Below are positions 8,427-62,606 of a stretch of 64,000 bases of DNA, in pieces. The first letter of the stretch is position 1, and every line of letters starts with the position of its first letter. The stretch spans positions 558,001 through 622,000 of the forward strand of contig CABHOK010000002.1 in NCBI GenBank assembly GCA_902168205.1, written 5' to 3'. The stretch comes from an uncultured Chitinophaga sp. GTDB taxonomy: Bacteria; Bacteroidota; Bacteroidia; Cytophagales; Cyclobacteriaceae. A program made the translations under genes and the position numbers. The notes below the pieces were generated by a model that made no database searches, was not told where the DNA came from, and worked only from the letters and a program-made list of their open reading frames with translations.

Positions 8427-9146
8427 TTAAACTTGCACTTTCCCGATAAACTCCTGCCGATACGATTCACTCAGCGTAAGCACCAACGGTTTCCCGGAAG
8501 GCTGCGGAATGCTGGTAGTGATTTCATCGTGCGAGAAGAAGTGAACAGACTTTATAGCAACCAGTTCTTTTTTATTAACGCGTGAAAACTGATCGGAGGG
8601 AAGTACTTCAAGTAGTTTCTCGAAAGATATATTCTTCAATGTAAGAATGGTTCCGTCCAGTAGCTGTACCGTTTTATCACGACTGTCGGAGTCAGAAGTT
8701 TTAATATAGCCTACCTGGTCGAAGAACAGCAATGCTTTACCTTTATCCGTATTCAGCTGAACAAAGTTTTTGGCAGACGAAGATTTACTGATGCGACTGA
8801 CCGCCTTTTGTATAGCCTGTTGCAGACGTTCTTTCTTTACAGGCTTGCGTACATAGTCAATGGCATCCAGATCAAATGCCTCTGCGGCAAACTCTTTATA
8901 GGCTGTTACAAAAATTACAGGTTTACCTTGTAATAGATTAGCAACGTGCAAGCCATTCATCGCAGGCATTTCGATGTCGAGAATGCAGAGATCAAAATCA
9001 AGATTCGGAACTTCCTTCAGAAATATATCCGGGCTGTTAAATGCCTTTACTACTTCCAGCTCCGGCAATTGCTCACATAACATTTTCAGATAAGTGAGTC
9101 CCGGCAGTTCATCATCGAGCAGTAAGCATCTGAGCTTTGTGTTCAA
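8427..9146 (-). CDS. LytTR-family response regulator
   Basis: A 239-residue response regulator. The receiver domain (about 5-120) has the acidic pair D11-D12, the phosphoacceptor D57 in LCILDIEMPAMNG and the Lys of VRKPVKKE. The C-terminal LytTR DNA-binding domain (about 145-235) shows DKTVQLLDGTILTLKNISFE, the conserved FSRVNKKELVAIKSV strand-helix, and a terminal segment expected to contact DNA. LytTR domains bind direct repeats in adjacent major grooves about 21-22 bp apart. Its start overlaps the kinase gene by 35 bp, so the pair is co-translated. This is a candidate binder for TTCGGAA-like repeats elsewhere in the window, but that is inference. Confidence 0.93.
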   Translation of the reverse strand: MNTKLRCLLLDDELPGLTYLKMLCEQLPELEVVKAFNSPDIFLKEVPNLDFDLCILDIEMPAMNGLHVANLLQGKPVIFVTAYKEFAAEAFDLDAIDYVRKPVKKERLQQAIQKAVSRISKSSSAKNFVQLNTDKGKALLFFDQVGYIKTSDSDSRDKTVQLLDGTILTLKNISFEKLLEVLPSDQFSRVNKKELVAIKSVHFFSHDEITTSIPQPSGKPLVLTLSESYRQEFIGKVQV

Positions 9147-58755: not shown

Positions 58756-59130
58756 CTAATCCGCTGGAAACGCCATCGTGCTTAACAAAGCATTTTCCGC
58801 CTGGCGACTGTCCAACCGCGTATGCTGTACTACAATCGGAATGTCAGATTCAATGATACAGGCGTAATCTGTTCCGGTGGGAACGGACTGCGGATCTTTC
58901 AGGTCGTTAAAGCGAACATGTTTGGTTCTTCGTGCTGCAACATCTATTTTATATGGACCTACCGGATCGCGGTCTGAAAAGTAAATGGTAAACGTTACGT
59001 GCGCATCTTCATCGTTGGCATTGAGAATGCAGGCTGTTTCATGACTCTCCATTTCAGGAGCAGGTCCTGTGCTATAGGTGGGAATATACCCTTCGGCTAT
59101 CGCCCATATTTTATGTCCGATGGTTTTCAT
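58756..59130 (-). CDS. Sensory rhodopsin transducer (ASRT) family protein
   Basis: 124 residues from ATG 59130; upstream in-frame codons lie in the operator array and lack homology. The sequence follows the Anabaena sensory rhodopsin transducer closely: WAIAEGYIP, SHETACILNANDEDAHVT, RRTKHVRFNDL and PIVVQHTRLDSRQAENALL (cited from memory of that protein). ASRT is a soluble all-beta tetramer that partners a microbial rhodopsin in Anabaena; many homologues occur without one, with a suggested role in sugar or DNA binding. No rhodopsin gene is in this window. It is divergent from the TIR gene across a 160-bp region holding the 21-bp array. Confidence 0.9.
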   Translation of the reverse strand: MKTIGHKIWAIAEGYIPTYSTGPAPEMESHETACILNANDEDAHVTFTIYFSDRDPVGPYKIDVAARRTKHVRFNDLKDPQSVPTGTDYACIIESDIPIVVQHTRLDSRQAENALLSTMAFPAD

Positions 59131-59206
59131 CCGTGATCGTTTACAAAATATACCGGTAAAAAGAAATGCCAATGCAGGTCGTGTGCGAATCTGTGAAAAG
59201 CATCCG

Positions 59207-59276
59207 TTCGGAAGAAAAAATGACGCTTTCGGAAACATACTTTGCACACCGGGGAGAAAGCTTCTATACTTCGGCT
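59207..59276. promoter_or_regulatory. Array A: 21-bp-periodic TTCGGAA elements upstream of the TIR gene
   Basis: TTCGGAA at 59207, TTCGGAA at 59228, a degenerate CCGGGGA at 59249 and TTCGGCT at 59270, each exactly 21 bp after the last. The spacing places each copy on the same DNA face. It lies between the divergent ASRT homologue and the TIR gene. Confidence 0.6.
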
Positions 59277-59289
59277 TTACGATTTATAG

Positions 59290-59835
59290 ATGCATCACAA
59301 TTATTCGTACGACCTTTTTATATCGCATGCGGTAGAAGACAAGATTCTACTGGTGAACGAACTTGCTGCACGACTCGAGGCACAAGGTATAAAAGTGTGG
59401 TATACCGGGCAGGAACTTAGTATTGGCGATGTGGTATGCGATACACTGGTAGAAGGTATGCGTCACTGCCGCTATGGTATTGTTGTTTTCAGTCCAAGCT
59501 ATATATCAAAAATGAAGCCCTCGGCTGAATTCAGTACACTGATCAATTATAAACGCCAGGGCGAAAAAGTAATTATACCGGTACTGTTCGAAGTTACACC
59601 GGGTGAATTGGCGATCAGGAATATATTACCTCACAATGTCATGGCTATATATAGTAGTAATGGATTGGATGATATCGTAACCCGTTTATTACAGCAAATC
59701 AACTTACCGCACAAACCTTCTCCCGCTAAAAGTACATCCGTATTTAAGTCCCGGAAGGGTAAACTATATGCCGCCCTGTTACTGGCTGCCGGGGTGGTGT
59801 TGCTTCTTTACGGCTTTAGTATGTTGCTGATGTAA
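59290..59835 (+). CDS. TIR-domain protein with C-terminal membrane anchor
   Basis: 181 residues. The N-terminal TIR domain (about 5-140) has YDLFISHAVEDK (box 1), GIKVWYTGQELSIGD (BB-loop region) and GIVVFSPSYI, with a Glu in KPSAEF at the place of the catalytic Glu of NAD-cleaving TIR domains. A basic linker (KSRKGK) is followed by one hydrophobic helix (AALLLAAGVVLLLYGFSMLL) at the very C-terminus, so the TIR domain faces the cytoplasm. Bacterial TIR proteins act in NAD+ depletion, signalling or defence; no defence partner is next to it. Array A ends 13 bp upstream. Confidence 0.88.
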   Translation: MHHNYSYDLFISHAVEDKILLVNELAARLEAQGIKVWYTGQELSIGDVVCDTLVEGMRHCRYGIVVFSPSYISKMKPSAEFSTLINYKRQGEKVIIPVLFEVTPGELAIRNILPHNVMAIYSSNGLDDIVTRLLQQINLPHKPSPAKSTSVFKSRKGKLYAALLLAAGVVLLLYGFSMLLM

Positions 59836-59907
59836 CGTGATAAAAGGTATATATGTAGCATAGAATGCGAGGTCCGCGATCGGTTGTATAGGTGGTCGGT
59901 AAATCGT

Positions 59908-59960
59908 TTCGGAAAGAAAAATGATACCTTCGGAAAAAATCTGCTGCATCCCGGAGAAAA
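59908..59960 (+). promoter_or_regulatory. Array B: 21-bp-periodic TTCGGAA elements upstream of the Cys-rich lipoprotein gene
   Basis: TTCGGAA at 59908 and 59929 and CCCGGAG at 59950, again exactly 21 bp apart. The surrounding bases are partly similar to array A as well (for example the GAGAAA after the third copy in both). It ends about 55 bp before the start codon at 60013. Confidence 0.6.
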
Positions 59961-60012
59961 CTTTTTACCGGCAGCGATTCCGTGGCGTATTTCATTCTAT
60001 GAACGAAATGAT

Positions 60013-60444
60013 ATGCGGTTTAACAATTACATAGTCCGCACAACGGTGCTGTTTCTATTCCTGGTTCTGCTGCAGGGATGTGCCTTCAGCCAGGCCGATG
60101 ATCAAACGGTATACATTACCCGCACAGGCAACAAATATCACAAGAGTACATGCCAATACCTGAAGCATAGTCGCATCGGTATAGAGATTTCGGTGGCAAA
60201 GGAGCAAGGCTATACTCCCTGCAGCGCGTGTCACCCAGGTTCTACCAAGAACCCCGTAGCGCCTGCCAAACCACAACAGCAAACTAAACAGCAGATACAG
60301 CAGGTACGCGGTTCTTCCGAAAAAGTAACAGCATCTGAGAAGACAGTTACAGCATCACGACAGTGCACAGCCAAAACAAAATCAGGCAGTCGCTGCAAGC
60401 GCATCACGCAAAATGCCAATGGAAAATGCTGGCAGCATCAGTAG
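60013..60444 (+). CDS. Lipoprotein with Cys-rich metal-binding motif and C-terminal zinc-finger-like tail
   Basis: 143 residues from ATG 60013. Upstream in-frame codons run through array B and are not convincing. The lipoprotein signal has lipobox LLQGC (Cys near 23). It carries an Ada-like Cys/His motif (KYHKSTCQYLKHS, then GYTPCSACHPG), a Gln/Thr-rich linker, and a C-terminal CTAKTKSGSRCKR to GKCWQHQ segment resembling a small zinc-binding domain. Function is unknown. The H-x3-C-x-Y-L theme recurs in the small protein at 60588. Confidence 0.75.
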   Translation: MRFNNYIVRTTVLFLFLVLLQGCAFSQADDQTVYITRTGNKYHKSTCQYLKHSRIGIEISVAKEQGYTPCSACHPGSTKNPVAPAKPQQQTKQQIQQVRGSSEKVTASEKTVTASRQCTAKTKSGSRCKRITQNANGKCWQHQ

Positions 60445-60545
60445 CAGTGAAAGATTATAAGATTGGAGATTATAAAATTAAAAAGGAGTTAGTGTTTATC
60501 GCTTTTGTTACCACTATGTTTTATAAACAGAAAATTATAATGTTT

Positions 60546-60576
60546 CAATTTTCCAATTTTCCAATTTTCCAATTTT
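60546..60576 (+). repeat. Tandem 8-bp repeat upstream of a small Cys-rich gene
   Basis: Nearly four copies of caattttc (31 bp), ending 11 bp before the ATG at 60588. The rest of the 143-bp gap is AT-rich without other features. Such repeats can change copy number by slippage. Confidence 0.75.
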
Positions 60577-60587
60577 AAAATCCATGT

Positions 60588-60797
60588 ATGAATTTCTATT
60601 GTGTCGATACTGATGCAGGGCAGAAGGGTGAGCATATCGTACACCGTGTCAAATGTCAATATTTACCTTCGGACAAGATCGAGCTTGGGCCGTTTCCTTC
60701 CTGTTACGAAGCCATTCAGGCAGCTCGTAAATATTACCGGCATATAAATGGATGCCAGCATTGCTGCATCGAATGTTATCGCGTGCAAACAGTTTAG
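60588..60797 (+). CDS. Small Cys-rich protein
   Basis: 69 residues, cytoplasmic. It has six Cys and two His in HRVKCQYLPS, a Cys in PSCYEA, and GCQHCCIECY near the C-terminus, probably a zinc-binding fold. HxxxCxYL is shared with the lipoprotein at 60013. No known function. Its TAG overlaps the stop codon of the convergent gene. Confidence 0.7.
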   Translation: MNFYCVDTDAGQKGEHIVHRVKCQYLPSDKIELGPFPSCYEAIQAARKYYRHINGCQHCCIECYRVQTV

Positions 60798-61285
60798 GCG
60801 AGGTTAACAGATTTGTTTGTCGTGTTGGCAACTCCGGCTTCCTGCGGCTTCACCAGCGTTTCTGTTAACTGTCGCGAACTGATCTCAAAATTTTCAAGGT
60901 GTTGGTGAATTTCGCGAAGTGTAGCCTGCGAAAGTGTGGAATCTTTCATCACCGCCAGGTATTCTTTCTGCGTCATGGCTTCTACAGTCGTGCAGCAGTC
61001 AGATAGTGATCTTCGTTTGTAGGAGACTTCGAACTTCATCCAGCGCAAGGCTTTTCGATATATGGTATCTTTCGTAAGATCCAGCGCCTGGGCTGAGCCA
61101 TACGCGATGAGCCAGCGCGAAAGATGATCTTTATTTACCTGCGATTGATATGCAAATTCATGAAAGAGGTCATGCAGCATAGCATTTTTGGAGATGAGTG
61201 CGGCATGCTTGTAAAACTCTTCACGCTCATGGTTGGCCATAATAAGTCTGACCAGGTCTTCTACATTCTTCACTACATTTTCCAT
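60794..61285 (-). CDS. DUF2383/PA2169-like four-helix-bundle protein
   Basis: 163 residues from ATG 61285; in-frame starts at 61354 and 61393 are possible but the similarity begins at 61285. The helices NVEDLVRLIMANHEREEFYKHA, MLHDLFHEFAYQSQVNKDHL (cited as separate stretches) and the last helix LREIHQHLENFEISSRQL fit the DUF2383 ferritin-like bundle, seen in stress-induced proteins of unknown function. It is divergent from the HsdR-N gene; array C lies between them. Confidence 0.7.
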   Translation of the reverse strand: MENVVKNVEDLVRLIMANHEREEFYKHAALISKNAMLHDLFHEFAYQSQVNKDHLSRWLIAYGSAQALDLTKDTIYRKALRWMKFEVSYKRRSLSDCCTTVEAMTQKEYLAVMKDSTLSQATLREIHQHLENFEISSRQLTETLVKPQEAGVANTTNKSVNLA

Positions 61286-61404
61286 TGGGATAAGTATAAT
61301 ATTGTGATTTATAAAATACCGTGCCAGGTGTTTAGCGTCCTCCTTTACCGACATAGACAAATTTATACTGTTACCGAAGCCAGTGATTAACATGGTGTAT
61401 CACG

Positions 61405-61454
61405 TTCGGAAACATAAAGGCAGCGTTGGGAAACAAAATATAGTGCTTGGGAAA
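61405..61454. promoter_or_regulatory. Array C: 21-bp-periodic TTCGGAAA/TTGGGAAA elements
   Basis: TTCGGAAAC at 61405, TTGGGAAAC at 61426 and TTGGGAAAG at 61447, exactly 21 bp apart. It is in the divergent region between the DUF2383-like gene and the HsdR-N gene, the start of which is 64 bp further on. The third array of the same type within 2.3 kb. Confidence 0.62.
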
Positions 61455-61517
61455 GATCGTCATGTTAATAGGAGGTGGGTGATTAGCTTGATGGATAAAC
61501 GTTAATTCACGAACCCT

Positions 61518-62606
61518 ATGGACTTTAAAGATCAGATCAAACAACTTGGTGATCGCGTAGCCAAGATGCTGCCTCAGATTCAGACGGAGGAAGCTACCAA
61601 AACCTCGCTTACGTTGCCCTTTATTCAGATTCTTGGTTATGATATATTCAATCCGGCTGAAGTAAATCCTGAATTTGTAGCGGACCTCGGCATTAAGAAA
61701 GGCGAGAAGGTTGATTATGCCATTATGAAAAATGGTGAACCGATTCTGCTGATCGAATGCAAGCACTATCAGGAAAAACTCGATCCACACAACTCACAGT
61801 TGTTCCGGTATTTCCATACTACCAAAGCTAAATTCGGATTGCTCACTAACGGCTTGCATTACCGCTTCTATACCGACCTGGTGGAAGCAAACAAGATGGA
61901 CGAAAAACCGTTCTTCGAATTTATGCTTACCGATATCAAAGAAGCTGAAGTAGATGAACTGAAGAAATTTCACAAATCGTACTTCGATCTCGAAAGTATA
62001 TTTACTACAGCCAGTGAATTGAAATATTCCAACGAGATAAAAATAGTGTTGACTTCGGAGTTTAAAGAACCAAGCGAAGATTTCGTACGGTTCTTCATCA
62101 GTAAAGTATACGATGGCAAGGCTATGCCCAAAGTAGTATCACAGTTTACCGGTATAGTGAAGAAATCGGTTAACCAGTTGATCAGCGATATGATCAACGA
62201 CCGATTGAAATCCGCTTTGGCAAAAGAAGCTGAATCAGAAAAAGCACGCGTGACAGAAGAAGCCGCAGCACGCCCGGAAGAAGATAAAGCCATTGAGACA
62301 ACGGCACAGGAAATGGAAGGCTTTATGATTGTGAAGTCGATTATACGAAAGAAGATCGATGCCAATCGAATTGTTGCACGCGATACCAAAACGTACTACG
62401 GCATTCTGCTGGATGACAACAATCGTAAACCGCTATGCAGACTCTGGTTCAACGGCACGAAAAAATACCTGGGTTTGTTTGATGAAACTAAAAATGAGAC
62501 ACGTCATGAGCTGCAAAAGCTGGATGATATCTTTAATTATACCGAGCAGCTTTTGAAGAGTGTTGATCTGTACGAAAAAGAAGAAAAAGTAGCAAACCCT
62601 ATATAG
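61518..62606 (+). CDS. Orphan type I restriction HsdR N-terminal-like (PD-(D/E)XK) protein
   Basis: 362 residues. The N-terminal HSDR_N domain (about 20-145) has the nuclease fold motif: D in EKVDYAIMKNGEP and the ECK of LLIECKHYQ, with FGLLTNGLHYRFYTD after it. A charged coiled region (about 235-265, Glu/Ala-rich) leads to a C-terminal domain (270-355) with a YYGILLDDNNRKPLCRLWF strand set. It lacks the helicase domains of true HsdR, and no hsdM or hsdS is nearby, so it is not a classical restriction subunit. DNA cleavage or binding is inferred only. Its promoter region contains array C. Confidence 0.83.
   Translation: MDFKDQIKQLGDRVAKMLPQIQTEEATKTSLTLPFIQILGYDIFNPAEVNPEFVADLGIKKGEKVDYAIMKNGEPILLIECKHYQEKLDPHNSQLFRYFHTTKAKFGLLTNGLHYRFYTDLVEANKMDEKPFFEFMLTDIKEAEVDELKKFHKSYFDLESIFTTASELKYSNEIKIVLTSEFKEPSEDFVRFFISKVYDGKAMPKVVSQFTGIVKKSVNQLISDMINDRLKSALAKEAESEKARVTEEAAARPEEDKAIETTAQEMEGFMIVKSIIRKKIDANRIVARDTKTYYGILLDDNNRKPLCRLWFNGTKKYLGLFDETKNETRHELQKLDDIFNYTEQLLKSVDLYEKEEKVANPI

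Follow-up and report, generated by a model that had tools for sequence, protein, structure and literature searches.

The 64,000-nucleotide stretch analysed here (the window; contig CABHOK010000002.1 of assembly GCA_902168205.1, from an uncultured Chitinophaga sp.) carries near its end three direct-repeat arrays, A, B and C, which stand before a TIR gene, a gene for a Cys-rich protein and an HSDR_N gene, respectively (Table 1). Each array is made of three copies of a TTSGGAAAnnAAA-like unit with a period of exactly 21 bp, as seen when the sequence is aligned in rows of 21. With 8-bp cores and 13-bp spacers, the repeats fit the geometry of LytTR-type direct repeats (8-9 bp with spacers of 10-13 bp). 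The third unit is degenerate in array A (CCGGGGAG) and array B (CCCGGAGA). An earlier note on this DNA had listed ten core positions at exact 21-bp spacing, and all ten were confirmed; the fourth position of array A (59270, TTCGGCTT) matches the core poorly, lies beyond the three units that recur elsewhere and was not accepted as part of the element. In the following, G000 is the genome carrying the window, and other genomes, fetched loci and contigs are numbered with the prefixes G, L and C.

We scored the window with a position matrix derived from 21 arrays outside G000, leaving out orthologues of arrays A, B and C as well; array C reached 38.9, array B 37.6 and array A 29.0. The next score in the window, once the three arrays and their 21-bp-shifted frames are set aside, was 12.3, and 100 dinucleotide-preserving shuffles of the window reached at most 19.9 with the same matrix. 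The arrays are thus not due to chance, as the earlier note had argued. The cores are short, and a pair pattern allowing two mismatches gave 62 forward matches in G000 vs 32 when the pattern was read backwards, which is what an origin by chance or base composition could draw on; this origin is refuted by the shuffles, the gap in E values across the genome, the weak best matches in three congeners (E 0.04-0.14 in G002, G003 and G006) and the scans of other periods given below, and we regard its probability as negligible.

A sequence model built from 13 triples detected 14 arrays at E <= 6.1e-5 in the 7.3 Mb of G000, the next match having an E of 0.19; such a genome-wide scan had been proposed beforehand as a check. 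A clear gene lies behind 13 of the 14, each with an ATG frame of 143 or more codons that starts 22-269 bp downstream, and a four-unit reading is possible for the array at C14:801749. In a scan of 39 genomes including G000, the congeners G001, G004 and G005 carry several arrays and G022, from another genus, carries two, whereas the best matches in the congeners G002, G003 and G006 reached E 0.14, 0.07 and 0.04. The element is therefore conserved in relatives, as the earlier reading entailed: we gathered 42 arrays from five genomes with a three-unit matrix (G000, 14; G005, 10; G001, 9; G004, 7; G022, 2) and used 45 from further genera. All 42 show three repeats at ~21 bp, although, having been picked by a three-unit model, they owe the number three partly to selection. 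Two-unit sites also occur, between the regulator gene introduced below and its TIR gene in G004 and G005 and frequently in other genera. Across the family, arrays were present at E<=1e-4 in 18 of 390 genomes. Regions L040 and L041 yielded no array.

A second conserved patch follows the units. When the 42 arrays are aligned on their first T, offset 79 is T in 26 and offset 80 is A or T in 41, while offsets 83 and 84 are A or T in all 42. The string TANNTT begins at offset 79 in 12 of the 42 arrays vs a mean of 0.42 per offset, and in 9 of 35 (mean 0.35) after removal of near-identical arrays. In the set from further genera (46 found, 45 used; one was lost to a stretch that was too short or in which no core passed), the distance from the last core, counted from its start, to TANNTT is 37 bp in seven of 45 arrays (mean 0.32 per offset) and in six of 40 non-redundant ones (mean 0.30), with secondary peaks at 10 bp (five arrays) and 38 bp (four). 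Bacteroidota promoters have a -7 box, TAnnTTTG, to which the array-linked TAnnTT box is similar. Because this box stands at one fixed distance in both array sets, the array is an upstream promoter element with polarity, and it lies just upstream of the promoter, as LytTR sites do. In the window, array C has a -7-like element at the expected place (Table 1) and array B an imperfect match displaced by one base. Between the end of array A and the start of its gene there are 22 bp (59268-59292), and G001 keeps the same geometry.

Since the arrays are polar, the predicted targets are only the genes they point at. The single regulon proposed for this part of the window would thus keep the TIR, Cys-rich and HSDR_N genes and extend beyond them to about 14 loci in G000; it would lose the two minus-strand genes that had been counted in it, at 58756-59247 (described as an ASRT homologue) and at 60794-61393 (described as DUF2383-like).

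A candidate regulator emerged from G022, in which an array lies directly behind the gene of a LytTR response regulator, in the order TPR kinase, regulator and TIR gene. The same gene order was found in G004, G005 and G015. A profile built from eight array-linked regulators delimits a subfamily that is clear in 25 of the 390 family genomes (at least 312 bits, the next score being 244). At all 25 loci a histidine kinase adjoins the regulator, and a TIR match follows within 1.4 kb downstream, although it is truncated by the end of the contig in G319 and is short in G022 and in G256. The kinase of this system is a sensor with an N-terminal hydrophobic, signal-like segment, TPR repeats, a further hydrophobic segment at residue 397 and HisKA_2. 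A fourth gene, X, is divergent from the kinase in 23 of the 25 loci, the fetched stretch or contig stopping too early in the other two. Arrays at E<=1e-4 were present in 12 of the 25 regulator genomes vs six of the 365 others (Fisher p=3.6e-12, or p=3.8e-11 without G000, the source of the array model; both values are optimistic since the genomes are related).

The homologue of the array-linked regulator in G000 is encoded at C3:196216-196929 (E 1.9e-60, next match in that genome 4.8e-21) and is the sole match at E<=1e-45, with seven of 94 candidates scored. It contains Response_reg and LytTR domains (Pfam; LytTR 5.5e-18), and its predicted model is closest to full-length ComE (fold search, E 1.2e-10). 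A sequence search of PDB with its LytTR part gave a single weak regulator match (3d6w, E 0.002). The earlier note had taken the repeats for LytTR-type sites and had named the LytTR gene of the window (8427-9146) as a regulator to be tried on them. A shared regulatory direct repeat of LytTR geometry is borne out, whereas the window gene was rejected as the binder: it has 20% identity (51/254 columns) to the array-linked regulator, whose closest homologue in G000 is the gene on C3. The kinase and regulator are encoded at the locus of array A in G004 and G005 and on another contig in G000.

Closer inspection of the regulator loci revealed a core pair at period 21 (at most 3 mismatches in 16 positions) near the regulator stop codon in 20 of 25, taking the best of about 85 positions per locus. 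In all 20 the pair starts -1 to +9 nt from the stop codon, and the pairs behind the regulators of G303 and G298 have four mismatches. The same scan gave 10 of 25 loci for periods of 20 and 22, where the period-21 sites are hit with a slip of one base, and 0-6 at the remaining 26 periods between 12 and 40. Over the 116 kb downstream of the 25 regulators, the coding strand holds 45 pairs at period 21, six at period 42, which are outer units, three at 22 and no more than one at any of the remaining periods between 9 and 69; the opposite strand holds one pair at period 25 and none at 21.

At 23 of the 25 loci gene X lies upstream of the kinase. This position and the helical N-terminal part of X would suit a second candidate, namely that another protein such as X binds the arrays. 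We consider this improbable: X was not found in three loci searched (L166, L169 and L170) of sister kinase/regulator pairs that have a 21-bp motif of their own, the conserved site lies at the regulator stop codon and not at X, and direct repeats at two helical turns are of the LytTR type. No Pfam family matched X, and its fold matches are weak (lipocalin-like, best E 7.8e-4; Cap15 receptor, E 0.011 in PDB, a lead only).

Element, spacing, polarity, fixed box distance, recurrence in genus and family, regulator linkage and co-occurrence and partial defence-like matches of the targets are computed observations. Judging from these sequences, a LytTR two-component system (in G000 with the regulator at C3:196216-196929) probably activates a variable, defence-rich regulon through the arrays as its operators. 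Binding, activation over repression, the signal and an immune role we infer. The TPR/HisKA_2 kinase would sense a signal, upon which the LytTR regulator would be phosphorylated, and regulator molecules would bind the 8-bp sites on one face of the helix (21 bp being two turns). The last of these sites would lie immediately before the core promoter, the TAnnTT promoter 37 bp past the last core would be activated, and TIR, Septu, PARIS, ThsB-, CAP12-, GmrSD- and SIR2-like genes would be induced together with uncharacterised families. Alternatively, the arrays might be repression operators with which the regulator holds costly genes off until a signal arrives. The LytTR protein CoxC represses in this way, its three direct repeats overlapping the -35 box (PMC11347149; here and below, the papers are cited from partial texts). 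Published work on LytTR systems counts against repression here (PMC6193735), and we regard it as unlikely.

The target set comprises 42 proteins behind arrays in G000, G001, G004, G005 and G022, of which 28 were scanned against PADLOC; the remaining 14 comprise a 58-amino-acid frame (L032), a 100-amino-acid protein (L123:2043-2342) and proteins orthologous or related to scanned ones. At E<=1e-20, a cut picked after the scores had been seen, eight of the 28 array-driven proteins matched vs none of 30 controls picked randomly among 207 neighbouring genes that encode 100 or more amino acids (p=0.0016). At 1e-3 the numbers are 10 of 28 vs four of 30, and these four controls include the kinase of the system itself and the second gene behind array L033. 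In G000, five of 13 target proteins matched at E<=1e-20. Among ten further genes near arrays, five matched at E<=1e-3 and five did not. Matches behind arrays include both genes of a Septu and of a PARIS system (Table 1); the two other neighbouring genes scanned beside the ThsB-like genes at L031, a candidate Thoeris locus, gave no match to ThsA. No gene was found right behind the arrays L102, L104 and L112, and a distant gene near L104 had no PADLOC match.

Table 1. Arrays, promoter element, predicted targets and associated genes. Numerical positions refer to the window, other entries to genomes (G), fetched loci (L) and contigs (C).
Feature	Location	Strand	Description
Array A	59205..59267	+	cores 59207, 59228, 59249; E 6.0e-9; before TIR gene
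Array B	59906..59968	+	cores 59908, 59929, 59950; E 2.5e-9; before Cys-rich gene
Array C	61403..61465	+	cores 61405, 61426, 61447; E 6.0e-11; before HSDR_N gene
-7-like element of array C	61484..61489	+	TAGCTT, 37 bp from start of core 3
Predicted target of array A	59290..59835	+	181 aa; TIR_2 2.2e-18 (Pfam), PDC-S66 9.9e-33 (PADLOC); hydrophobic segment at the C-terminus by eye
Predicted target of array B	60013..60444	+	Cys-rich, 143 aa; lipoprotein-like N-terminus by eye; DUF5763 below Pfam cut-off
Small Cys-rich protein	60588..60797	+	69 aa; G004 and G005 have a similar gene at the corresponding position
Predicted target of array C	61518..62606	+	362 aa; HSDR_N 1.3e-16, no other Pfam domain found
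Gene X	L162:11389-12159		divergent from kinase; model with helical N-terminus and beta barrel, mean predicted local distance difference test (pLDDT) 89
Septu pair behind array	G004, L118		PtuA 9.3e-165 and PtuB 1.2e-72, both present
PARIS pair behind array	G000, L039		AriA 1.5e-28 and AriB 9.7e-24, both present
ThsB-like genes behind or near array	G000, L031		1.5e-125, and a second one nearby, 4e-77
PDC-S19 match behind array			PADLOC 5.5e-107
CAP12-TIR/PDC-S35 match behind array			1.7e-82, then kinase-like gene, 6.2e-35
GmrSD_N/Orf5-like gene behind array			1.3e-193
SIR2-like gene behind array			3.8e-14
Other families behind arrays			NYN; DUF6119 (twice); TIR paralogues of the array A gene (Pfam/PADLOC)
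Sister motif loci	G007 C27/C55, G104 C1, G054 C55, G015 C69, G022 C3

Several families without an assigned role recur behind arrays in several genera. The family of the array B target stands behind arrays in six genomes (cluster 1) and the array C target gene in four (cluster 4), while cluster 3 is presumably an Excalibur-like small protein. Cluster 2, of unassigned function, is likewise found behind arrays in six genomes (L105, L114, L131, L179, L180 and L185). The small Cys-rich gene that follows the array B target is possibly co-transcribed with it, and its product had no PADLOC match. The HSDR_N gene behind the array looks split into two frames in G004 (L119:2606-3690) and is full-length in G000, G001 and G005. 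As for the TIR proteins, one glutamate (E81, counted in the first row) is invariant in the 21 regulator-linked proteins and the product of the gene behind array A (22/22), and we take it to be the catalytic Glu of TIR NADases. The ~380-residue regulator-linked TIR protein (L162:7015-8154, L101:6691-7845) has a short counterpart in the window TIR gene.

Targets vary among species and are scattered over many loci, which would also be expected if the arrays were recombination or transposition sites that move single-gene cassettes. The fixed distance to the promoter box, the placement at syntenic loci in many genera and the linkage to a transcription regulator make this very improbable. A more serious alternative keeps the same regulator and sees in the regulon an envelope or antagonism-stress response, in which the anti-phage genes travel as passengers with those for secreted and membrane proteins. 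The kinase may face the periplasm, given its N-terminal hydrophobic segment and the one at residue 397, the recurrent families of clusters 1, 2 and 3 look secreted by eye, and 20 of the 28 scanned targets lack a PADLOC match at E<=1e-20. Against it stand the Septu and PARIS pairs and the ThsB-, SIR2- and GmrSD-like genes directly behind arrays, as well as the 30 random neighbours without any match at that cut, and we hold it to be possible and the less likely of the two readings of the regulon.

Several observations weigh against a defence-rich regulon under this LytTR system. The 20 targets just mentioned have no strong defence match, and the contrast with the controls at 1e-20 depends on a post-hoc cut. 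No array at E<=1e-4 was found in 13 of the 25 regulator genomes; G002 and G003 have the regulator and a weak pair behind it but no array at that threshold. The pair scan found no site between regulator and TIR gene in G000, G001 and G039. One G000 array (L032) is followed only by a 58-codon frame, and at array A the predicted -7 box would coincide with the start codon of the target gene, which may point to a leaderless start or to another promoter position. Conversely, six genomes without a subfamily regulator have one or two array matches each (G067, G096, G191, G206, G364 and G400). Those of G067 (L204) and G206 (L201 and L202), which belong to one genus, look real (matrix scores 30-41, before related genes), and perhaps a paralogue reads the same code in that genus. 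The best regulator match of the genus falls outside the subfamily.

We tentatively put forward a further-reaching proposal, which may well prove wrong: the locus of X, kinase, LytTR regulator and TIR gene could be the danger-sensing immune hub of the family, in which its own site drives the TIR effector, and horizontally gained defence operons would have been wired in by acquiring the same 63-bp array. If so, searching genomes for the array could reveal uncharacterised defence genes, and the sister 21-bp code (TTSGGACA / TTCGTCCTA) would mark sister hubs.

LytTR sites are described as paired 9-bp repeats 10-13 bp apart, with triplets in RcoM-1 and CoxC, and three 8-bp repeats at ~21 bp are a known type of LytTR site (PMC11347149). 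Like the sites of RcoM-1 and CoxC, the arrays place 8-bp direct repeats in threes, about two helical turns apart, at a promoter, and the RcoM-1 core begins with TTC, as TTSGGAAA can (PMC11347149). The RcoM-type core TTCNNGCA is not found here, where the core is TTSGGAAA, and RcoM and CoxC stand for one-component carbon monoxide (CO) sensing, in contrast to the predicted two-component binder and dispersed regulon of the arrays. With ComE, the best full-length fold match, the regulator shares the receiver (REC) plus LytTR architecture. ComE, AgrA, HdrR and BrsR likewise use direct repeats that are separated by ~12 bp and placed shortly before the promoter (PMC4227749, PMC6193735); the repeat pairs of AgrA lie immediately upstream of its promoters (PMC4227749), and in LytTR regulatory systems the repeats are biased to 10 bp upstream of the -35 (PMC6193735). 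These systems differ in having two sites, whereas most arrays of this genus have three, and in targeting competence, virulence or bacteriocin genes, whereas the genes here are defence-like and uncharacterised. The Gac/Rsm pathway of Pseudomonas acts post-transcriptionally. It is alike in placing a large, variable suite of anti-phage and anti-bacterial functions under a single two-component pathway (PMC11888443), and unlike in working through Rsm, whereas here there is a DNA site per promoter, a LytTR regulator and a neighbouring TIR gene. Septu (PtuAB) and PARIS (AriAB), found as pairs behind arrays in G004 and G000, are predicted targets and not the system itself.

In the open-licence literature, searched by title and start of abstract and with most subscription papers outside it, we recognised no paper dealing with the core, with a LytTR system linked to TIR or with a defence regulon of LytTR type. 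Triple LytTR sites are already known, while the core, the regulator subfamily with its TIR locus and a defence-rich regulon of LytTR type were not found in the literature searched. Coordination among the many separate defence systems of bacteria is still largely an open question, the Gac/Rsm example in Pseudomonas having been described (PMC11888443). A promoter code tied to one two-component system would make such coordination testable and point to the signal, and it would offer a regulon-based route to new defence genes (DUF6119, HSDR_N-only and NYN families) that is free of defence-island statistics.

A virus collection scanned for exact triples gave 23 stretches. The matches listed consist of tandem repeats that are near-identical and partly coding, or of a different repeat before phage genes, and were not accepted as arrays. 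Virus contigs L290, L304, L308, L309 and L311 share a three-unit TTGGGAAAA repeat at 21 bp before a phage gene that looks tail-protein-like by eye; this repeat is either unrelated to the arrays or convergent.

Weak array-like matches in G007 were rejected as arrays and proved to be a different, related motif. This sister motif, TTSGGACA-13-TTCGTCCTA with a period of 21 bp, lies ~2 kb from related kinase/LytTR-regulator pairs (Table 1) and probably marks a sister regulon. No match to the sister pattern was found in G000 and G004. With two mismatches allowed, the pattern was not above its backwards-read control in G054 (2 vs 5), G022 (3 vs 2) and G015 (1 vs 2), so that the case in these three genomes rests on position. 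In G007 (15 vs 8) and G104 (13 vs 3), the forward pattern exceeded the control.

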